From Planctomycetota bacterium (lineage in GTDB: Bacteria; Planctomycetota; UBA1135; GCA-002686595): 64,000 nucleotides of DNA. Under the pieces are notes generated by a model. It worked only from the letters and a program-made list of their open reading frames with translations, did not search any database and was not told the DNA's origin. Where the stretch lies: contig SIAI01000010.1 of the NCBI GenBank assembly GCA_009691855.1, positions 1 through 64,000 of the forward strand, given 5' to 3'. Positions 15,259 through 60,435 of the stretch are shown here, in pieces. Within the stretch, counting starts at the first letter, position 1; the number at the start of each line of letters is the position of its first letter. The translations under genes were made by a program, and so were the position numbers.

Positions 15259-15426
15259 CTAGTGTTCCTGCCCCGCAGTAGCGCCAACAAGGCGCCGTGA
15301 TGGATCGTCGCTGGCAAGGCGCGCCGCCGACGCGTATGCGCTGCAATACTAGGGAGGAGGCGCAACGCCGCCAGCGGCGCTTCAGTGCGGCGGATTGTTG
15401 GCGCTACTTCGGGGAAGGGACACTAG
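15259..15426. repeat. Inverted-repeat element E1 (type B/B termini, CTAG ends)
   Basis: Left CTAGTGTTCCTGCCCCGCAGTAGCGCCAACAA vs right reverse complement CTAGTGTCCCTTCCCCGAAGTAGCGCCAACAA (29/32). Confidence 0.88.
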
Positions 15427-15643
15427 TCCGGCGGGCAAGACTCCTGGAGCGGAGGAAAGCGCAGCGCGGCGACGCGCGGAGAAGGAAAGAGCATGGGCCT
15501 CCGCGGTTCAGCCTGCTGGAATCCGACGCTCCGCAGGTCTTCCGCCCCGCTCCCCGTTCTTCCTCCGTGGCGCTCTGCGCGTCTCCGCGCTGCGTTTGGG
15601 TCGCTGGCGGCGCACGCGCGGAACGACTTGTTCTTTGGAAGCC
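15427..15643. repeat. Interspersed hairpin-like repeat family R2, copy 1
   Basis: Imperfect inverted arms aaagcgcagcgcggcgacgcg.../...cgcgtctccgcgctgcgttt; ~110 bp internal segment near-identical to 60210-60310. Confidence 0.75.
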
Positions 15644-15658
15644 CGCGCGCTGCTGAGC

Positions 15659-51019: not shown

Positions 51020-51240
51020 CGGCGCGAGGATTCTCGAAGCAGAGGAAAACGCAGCGCGGAGACGCGGAGGAAGAAGGGGAGCGCGGTGGAAGAATGAGGT
51101 CAGAGAAGATGGGGCCTCCGCGGCTTCGGCTCTCCGAGAGTCGCCCATCCGGAGGCCGATTCTTCCTCCTCCGCGTCTCCGCGGTGCGTTTGGGTTGCAG
51201 GCACCGCCCGCGCTGAACGGCTTGTTCTTGGGAAGGGGTT
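51020..51240. repeat. Interspersed hairpin-like repeat family R2, copy 2 (boundaries approximate)
   Basis: Inverted arms aaaacgcagcgcggagacgcggaggaagaa / ttcttcctcctccgcgtctccgcggtgcgtttg. Confidence 0.75.
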
Positions 51241-51255
51241 GCTTCCCCCGCGCGG

Positions 51256-56788: not shown

Positions 56789-56953
56789 CTAGTGCTGTGA
56801 TTCACGCACAGAGGCCTTTATCCCGGGCCGCCTGCGCCCGCCGCGGCCTTGCGCCTTCTCCGAGACTTGCACCGAAGTCGCGTCGGCGGCGCGCCTTGCG
56901 CGAACGCAGGCGACCTCGGGATAAAGGCCCCTCTGCGTGAATCACAGCACTAG
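56789..56953. repeat. Inverted-repeat element E2 (type A/A termini, CTAG ends)
   Basis: Left CTAGTGCTGTGATTCACGCACAGAGGCCTTTATCCCG vs right reverse complement CTAGTGCTGTGATTCACGCAGAGGGGCCTTTATCCCG (35/37). Confidence 0.92.
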
Positions 56954-59511: not shown

Positions 59512-59886
59512 ATGACGCCCCCCAAGCAACGCCCCACGCCCCCCCCGCGCCAGGACGGCGACAAGCCCTGGGTGCGCACGCACACGCCGCGACCCGACGA
59601 GCTCTCGCGTGAGACCTTCGAGTTCATCGCCGCGATCGACGAGTACAAACGCAAGCACATGCGCTCCTTCCTCTCCGACCGCGAGGTCCTGGCGGTGCTG
59701 CGCACGCTGGGCTACGGCCGCGCGGACGCCGGGGCCGAACCGAGCGCGGGCGAGCTGGCCGAGTACGCCGATTCACGCGCCCGCTATCGCACCGAGCACG
59801 GGCGCCTGTTTCCGACCTGGAGCGAGGTCTTCCAGCTGCTGCTGGACCTCGGCTACCAGCGCCGTGAGCCGCGCAGCGCGGCCTGA
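59512..59886 (+). CDS. Small protein with two tandem copies of a ~37-aa module
   Basis: FEFIAAIDEYKRKHMRSFLSDREVLAVLRTLGY and LAEYADSRARYRTEHGRLFPTWSEVFQLLLDLGY. Confidence 0.75.
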   Translation: MTPPKQRPTPPPRQDGDKPWVRTHTPRPDELSRETFEFIAAIDEYKRKHMRSFLSDREVLAVLRTLGYGRADAGAEPSAGELAEYADSRARYRTEHGRLFPTWSEVFQLLLDLGYQRREPRSAA

Positions 59887-59890
59887 GCTA

Positions 59891-60056
59891 CTGGTGGTGT
59901 GATTCACGCACAGAGGCCTTTATCCCGGGCCGCCTGCGTCCGCCGCGGCGTTGCGCCTTCTCCGAGACTTGCACCGAATACGCGTCGTCGGCGCGCCTTG
60001 CCAGCGACGATCCATCACGGCGCCTTGTTGGCGCTACTGCGGGGCAGGAACACTAG
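59891..60056. repeat. Chimeric inverted-repeat element E3 (type A left end, type B right end)
   Basis: Left ~47 nt match E2 left arm; final 67 nt (ggcgcgccttgccagcg...ggaacactag) are the exact reverse complement of the first 67 nt of E1. Confidence 0.92.
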
Positions 60057-60164
60057 GTTCGAGAGTCCGCGCGTCGCGCGCGGATTCTAGGGCGTAGTAG
60101 CTCCGGCGCCGCAGGCGCCGCGCCGCTCATCAAGCGGCGAGGAGGGGGAGGCCGCGTGGCGCGC

Positions 60165-60362
60165 CTGGCCTGGAGCAGGAGTCGCGCAGAGCGCGGCGAC
60201 TCGCGGAGAAGGAAAGAGCATGGGCCTCCGCGGTTCAGCCTGCTGGAATCCGACGCTCCGGAGGTCTTCCGCCCCGCTCCCCGTTCTTCCTCCGGGGCGC
60301 TCCGCGCTGCGTTTGGGTTGCGGGCGGCGCACGCGCTGAACGACTTGTTCTTTGGAAGCCCC
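60165..60362. repeat. Interspersed hairpin-like repeat family R2, copy 3 (boundaries approximate)
   Basis: gagaaggaaagagcatgggcctccgcggttcagcctgctggaatccgacgctcc shared with copy 1. Confidence 0.75.
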
Positions 60363-60435
60363 CGCGCGCCTGCCGCGCCGGCGCGGTGCACGGGCGCGAA
60401 GTCTGCAGAGCGCGAGTCCTCTCGCGCCCCAGCCC

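Follow-up and report, generated by a model that had tools for sequence, protein, structure and literature searches.

A hybrid short element in a planctomycete genome, its dispersed family and their shared core

The window analysed here, a stretch of 64,000 nt of planctomycete DNA, carries a short element, E3, whose two ends do not match: it begins like one neighbouring element, E2, and ends like another, E1. How did such an element arise, and does it belong to a family that moves? A sequence-only reading of the window had proposed recombination or template switching between two sub-families of a modular, possibly mobile, short repeat.

E3 and the family to which it belongs

The coordinates and sequence of E3 given in that reading were correct on checking, and its composition of an A arm, a shared core and a B arm was confirmed by alignment of arms and cores, which gave one clean switch (Table 1). 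The 3' 68 nt of E3 are the exact reverse complement of the start of E1, where 67 nt had been claimed, and among the element loci examined E1 is the sole other carrier of this exact right arm. The left arm is nearly identical to the type A arm of E2, as proposed, but differs at three sites in 54 nt rather than at two. A and B cores are distinguished by seven positions, which read in series along E3 as A, A, A, A and then B, B, B. Folding energies agreed with the claim that E3 lacks the long terminal hairpin of E1 and E2, being -67.7 and -62.7 kcal/mol for the two strands of E3 and -96.4 to -132.5 kcal/mol for E1 and E2. The terminal arms of E3 are mismatched, and its inner core hairpin is also disrupted, with GACTT standing opposite AATAC. 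BLAST of E3 against its own genome (G000) returned 80 matches, the best non-self match at E = 1e-49, so that its resemblance to other copies is not due to chance.

Table 1. Positions in the window of E3, its parts, the two neighbouring elements and the surrounding host repeat.
Feature	Position	Strand	Remarks
E3, hybrid MITE: A arm, core, B arm	59891..60056	+	166 nt
E3 left target/terminus, CTGG (CTAG with one substitution)	59891..59894	+	filled sister sites GAGCTACTAGTGG, E3 GAGCTACTGGTGG
E3 type A left arm	59891..59944	+	nearest copies C7:40215, C84 and C3: 1 difference in 55 nt
E3 core, 57 nt	59945..60001	-	A-type at left end, B-type at right; folded, conserved strand is minus
A-to-B switch interval in E3 core	59974..59979	.	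A-specific base 59974, B-specific base 59979
E3 type B right arm, identical to that of E1	60002..60056	+	terminal CTAG at 60053-60056
E1, BB-type copy with long terminal hairpin	15259..15426	-	
E2, AA-type copy with long terminal hairpin	56789..56953	+	
Host repeat left end GAGCTA, whose CTAG took the A-type element	59885..59890	+	
Host repeat continuing right of E3	60057..60103	+	GTTCGAGAGTCC...GTAGTAGCTC

Copies in G000, a 4.28-Mb draft in 91 contigs that is approximately 91% complete, were counted by exhaustive pattern scans and from fetched loci. The core pattern, scanned exhaustively with up to two mismatches, gave 77 sites. The fetched loci held approximately 31 A-core-A' (AA) and 36 B'-core-B (BB) copies, full or truncated, together with approximately 11 cores bearing other arms. 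Three copies are hybrids: E3 (A-core-B) and two B-core-A elements at C25:52137-52303 and C70:138-304, in which the switch lies in the right part of the core. Restriction of the arms and core to this locus, or a lack of AA and BB copies elsewhere, would have told against two sub-families; both were checked and excluded, and the many AA and BB copies, with two more hybrids of opposite polarity, bear out E3 as a recombinant of the two.

Ordinary copies are short and non-coding, 165-168 nt long with paired arms of approximately 54 nt, and occur in both orientations. Nearly all element ends carry CTAG, and the A and B termini have in common a C-TAGTG start and an IS630-like pattern. Four AA/BB dyads were observed in which the two copies meet on one common CTAG (C7:637-965, C9:68814-69143, C40:32520-32847 and C54:46916-47245); three have B'-core-B followed by A-core-A' in direct order and one is head-to-head. 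A third arm type, CTCAGAGGCTGAGCAAGAATTCC, was seen on the core at C72:24716 (L003:1122-1180), giving at least three terminus types around the core in one genome.

Insertion sites and the origin of E3

AA copies are nested within a second repeat, the host repeat. Empty left ends of the host repeat in G000 (at least 18 exact copies, GAGCTACTAGGTTCGAGA) have a single CTAG, and filled copies (GAGCTACTAG-element-CTAGGTTCGAG) have CTAG twice; this comparison demonstrates insertion of the element directly. Either CTAG or the TA within it is doubled, TA and CTAG duplication being indistinguishable at CTAG sites. E3 occupies the same nest, and its A arm is nearest to those of nested AA copies (Table 1). 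At the orthologous site the congener G001 has neither E3 nor the host repeat, and a gene that we take from its sequence, not from annotation, to be glyA-like lies approximately 45 nt after the gene upstream of E3. A BB copy lies nearby in G001, between that gene and mtnA, a gene recognised in the same way, and none is found there in G000. The proposed modular, mobile, short repeat family thus holds: AA and BB copies are dispersed, sites are found both empty and filled, and the congener differs in which copies are present.

Several features of the surrounding sequence were recorded alongside. The long host repeat (TGAGCTACTAGGTTCGAG...GTAGTAGCTC and onward; window 59884-60103 and 60120-60372; L064-L075) starts, in at least 12 copies, within or just after a TGA that is the apparent stop codon of the upstream gene. 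Another intergenic repeat, CTCCGCGCTGCGTTTGGGTTGC...GAACGACTTGTTCTTTGGAAG, was found at window positions 15463-15655, 51177-51249 and 60190-60372, just past both E1 and E3, with two copies 92-97% identical. At approximately ten element ends in G000 a gene runs 3 nt into the element and takes its stop codon from the TAG of the terminal CTAG.

We consider it likely that the elements are a family of IS630-type MITEs and that E3 is a recombinant of an AA and a BB copy, formed most simply by deletion between neighbouring copies or by gene conversion. Each copy would be a non-autonomous IS630/Tc1-mariner MITE, laid out as C-TA-G, an arm of approximately 54 nt, a 57-nt core, the inverted arm and C-TA-G, with two arm types, A and B, around the common core in G000. 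Copies would insert at CTAG, probably moved in trans by IS630-type transposases, and since element ends are themselves CTAG, AA and BB copies would come to lie side by side on one CTAG. By one route, a BB copy would enter the right-hand CTAG of an AA copy, and deletion between the two cores of the resulting A-core-A'/B'-core-B array would leave E3; by the other, a BB copy such as E1 (68 nt identical) would convert one end of an AA copy. Either route would involve homologous recombination in the common core and would leave A-core-B within the same host repeat. The existence of AA/BB dyads makes deletion a natural route; the direct A-then-B order that it needs was absent among the four dyads seen. 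For the exact route we infer one or other of these two.

Both flanks of E3 fit one copy of the host repeat, and the neighbouring genes are also adjacent in the congener, so that neither a crossover between distant loci nor a translocation is needed. E1 and E3 lie in opposite orientation at a distance of 44.6 kb. An inversion between them was dismissed as the only event, on the grounds that E1 is intact as a BB copy and that the genes around E3 are ordered as in the congener. As to the two processes first proposed, recombination within the core explains E3 and template switching is unneeded. E3 is an expected by-product of such a MITE family.

Joining of AA and BB reads at the common core during assembly could also have produced an apparent hybrid, given a draft of 91 contigs in which many copies are located at contig ends, and AA and BB cores with exact common stretches of up to 14 nt. 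At the switch in E3, however, only approximately 4 nt are common to A and B, k-mers of at least 13 nt across it occur in none of the other element loci examined, and the single host-repeat copy and congener-like gene order on either side also speak against such a chimera, which we regard as very improbable. The two B-core-A hybrids have a longer exact common stretch at their switches, which makes the case against assembly error weaker for them than for E3.

It is also unlikely that the hybrid is mobile in its own right, with E3 inserted as A-core-B by a transposase that paired unlike ends, one A and one B. The A and B termini are alike enough in their start and pattern to allow this, and three hybrids exist; yet three among approximately 70 copies, with differing polarity and switch points, give no sign of amplification, the left end of E3 is mutated (CTGG), and AA copies nested at this site have matching host-repeat flanks.

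IS630-like ends and a folded core across the phylum

The recombinant reading of E3 draws on the nature of the element ends, where CTAG and the terminal pattern TAGTG-n-CCTG-nnn-CA(A/G)AAGTTCG point to IS630. IS630 prefers TA in CTAG according to Tenzen and Ohtsubo (1991), as cited in PMC2170065, and TA duplication has been shown for ISY100 (PMC2170065). PF13358 proteins (IS630 transposases) were found in 9 of 81 genomes of the family; none was detected in G001 or in G000, where an assembly approximately 91% complete leaves the absence provisional. A search of G000 for an autonomous copy by the B-terminus pattern gave hits that paired at approximately 147 nt, corresponding to the MITE, or were unpaired, never at the distance of an IS.

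IS630 elements in two relatives, G006 and G070, are bounded by CTAG and have the ends TAGTGGGGTGAGTCAAAG and TAGTGCCCTGCGGCAAAAGTTCGTCG; the G006 protein is a DDE_3 transposase. Six of the seven IS630 copies in G006 adjoin a core element at a common CTAG (L234, L241, L243, L245, L247 and L248), and IS630 seems to insert preferentially at element ends there. In G070, 30 of 36 terminal bases were identical by eye between an IS630 end and the core element abutting it, the termini compared not being the A and B termini of G000. Termini like those of a PF13358 element were found in G070, a relative; G000 itself had no partner for comparison with A and B. On the TA-in-CTAG target and this end similarity, the A and B termini appear IS630-like, and the elements are probably mobilised in trans by IS630-type transposases recognising their termini.

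The core reaches much further than this genome. A covariance model detected it in 66 of 392 sampled genomes of the phylum and 61 of 267 genera. Alignment of 36 loci from approximately 21 genera gave the minus-strand consensus GCAAGGCGC-NNN-GACGACGC-NNNNN-loop-NNNNN-TCGGAGGA-NNN-GCAACGC. The outer and inner stems covary, with 91% of cells paired and both-sided changes in 20 of 25 pairs; the covariation score was 0.616, against 0.203 for shuffled alignments (0/500) and at most 0.134 for slid partners. As judged from the alignment, the constant segments would be opposed as two tandem G.A/A.G motifs with C-G pairs between them; the A-type core departs from the outer of these. The folded core strand is probably under selection: copying errors that did no more than perfect the palindrome would have erased the G.A mismatches.

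Such conservation could mean that the hosts keep these elements as structured RNAs with a regulatory or termination role, or as REP-like palindromes, and that the CTAG ends are incidental. The strongly covarying fold and the nearly invariant tandem G.A motifs, a rare kind of mismatch, fit this, as does placement: all 31 full copies examined are outside predicted genes, and 14 of them are flanked by convergent genes. (Beside tandem genes the orientations split approximately 7 to 2, too few copies to be of use.) Direct demonstration of insertion, the occurrence of both orientations, and arms and termini that are wholly different between genomes yet match transposon ends make this reading highly unlikely, and we retain that of an IS630-type MITE family.

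Termini around the core vary among genomes and include IS630-like CTAGTG, CTAGCAGCCTGTTGAAAAAG, CTNAG-flanked GAGCC/GGGCC classes and TTTAGCCCGCATT; one core thus appears to be carried by several unrelated-looking termini. Where genomes have other terminus types, several of their PF01609 elements end in a similar pattern flanked by CTAG or CTNAG (L333, L338 and L345), a likeness to some core termini that is suggestive only, with no exact MITE partner proved. A bolder and decidedly tentative possibility is that the core is the true replicating unit, a selected RNA or ssDNA motif, folded as a hairpin containing two tandem sheared G.A motifs, which has lasted across the phylum by exchanging arms between unrelated transposase families; its intermediates would be E3-like recombinants, followed by hairpin template switching that copies one arm across.

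A second element, with ends AAGGGG(A/C)TATCCCC, was also noted in G000, where nine pattern matches were found (L324-L332; among them C16:53122-53429, C28:122, C45:7757, C62:39591, C86:243 and C86:83760). All its readable junctions but that at C48 place it in the apical loop of the core, and the match at C86:8 is cut by the contig end; it is as if the hairpin tip were a homing site. The encoded start of a fragment resembles an IS1595 zinc ribbon at E = 0.008, below the curated cut-off. The duplicated target at C16 is 6 to 10 nt; an 8-nt target duplication is compatible with the IS1595 family.

Meaning and relation to known elements

In the usual description, a MITE is a defunct copy of a single insertion sequence that retains the ends and lets the middle decay. 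The pattern here is reversed: the middle, with compensatory changes, is conserved in many families across the phylum, and the arms and terminus class change. This suggests miniature elements able to change the ends by which they are mobilised, and in E3 and the two reciprocal hybrids there are actual recombinants that illustrate a way in which ends could be exchanged. The core is more surprising than the hybrid. If under selection, it would be an undescribed structured motif, in many copies and many genomes, open to direct tests for an RNA or DNA function.

Rfam covariance models run on the window gave no gathering match, with only chance-level hits at E up to 10 or 1, and phage and plasmid collections gave no match to E3; the earlier statement that no named family fits stands for Rfam and the literature searched. 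Two identities were rejected. An integron attC site was set aside on inspection, no R-box fitting, and REP/RAYT repeats on size and ends, the element being 166 nt with CTAG-flanked inverted termini. The GTAG/CGTC-tagged, RAYT-linked REPs are likewise palindromic and intergenic, often near gene 3' ends, are present in Planctomycetes and can be IS targets, but are 20-40 bp with stems of 5-13 bp and no terminal inverted repeats (PMC3733652), whereas the elements here, at approximately 166 bp, have ends like those of transposons and a duplicated CTAG. Mosaic TIME elements, derived from Tn3, are also non-autonomous and form mosaics and composites, but with another transposase family and by capture between two elements (PMC4133298), not by terminus exchange around a folded core.

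The closest likenesses lie with IS630 and its MITEs. IS630/Tc1-mariner elements (ISY100 and IS630; PMC2170065) have a TA target in CTAG, which these elements probably also use, and share with them the terminal pattern TAGTGnCCTGnnnCA(A/G)AAGTTCG; the element here differs in having no transposase gene within it. Its mode of life is already known, that of an IS630-type MITE resembling Correia elements; its mechanism appears to be like that of a Correia- or RUP-type MITE, and its ends would be explained by IS630 chemistry. Correia elements (CREE/NEMIS) of Neisseria are likewise short (100-160 nt), non-coding and dispersed between genes; they have a strong hairpin, a conserved core and inverted terminal repeats with TA at the termini, and have been named as recombination hotspots (PMC2649163, PMC2229807). 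They are reported only from Neisseria (PMC2649163, PMC2229807), whereas the host here is a planctomycete, and by description they differ from these elements, which have arms of approximately 54 nt, another folded core and several unrelated terminus types across the phylum. RUP of Streptococcus pneumoniae is a MITE with a TA target, for which mobilisation in trans by IS630-Spn1 through matching termini has been proposed; its termini are 9 bp, and neither a long arm nor a phylum-wide covarying core has been described for it (PMC2229807). The IS630 partner, in the present case, was found only in relatives. Set against MITEs of the Correia and RUP type, these elements stand apart in a folded core spread across the phylum and in termini of several kinds.
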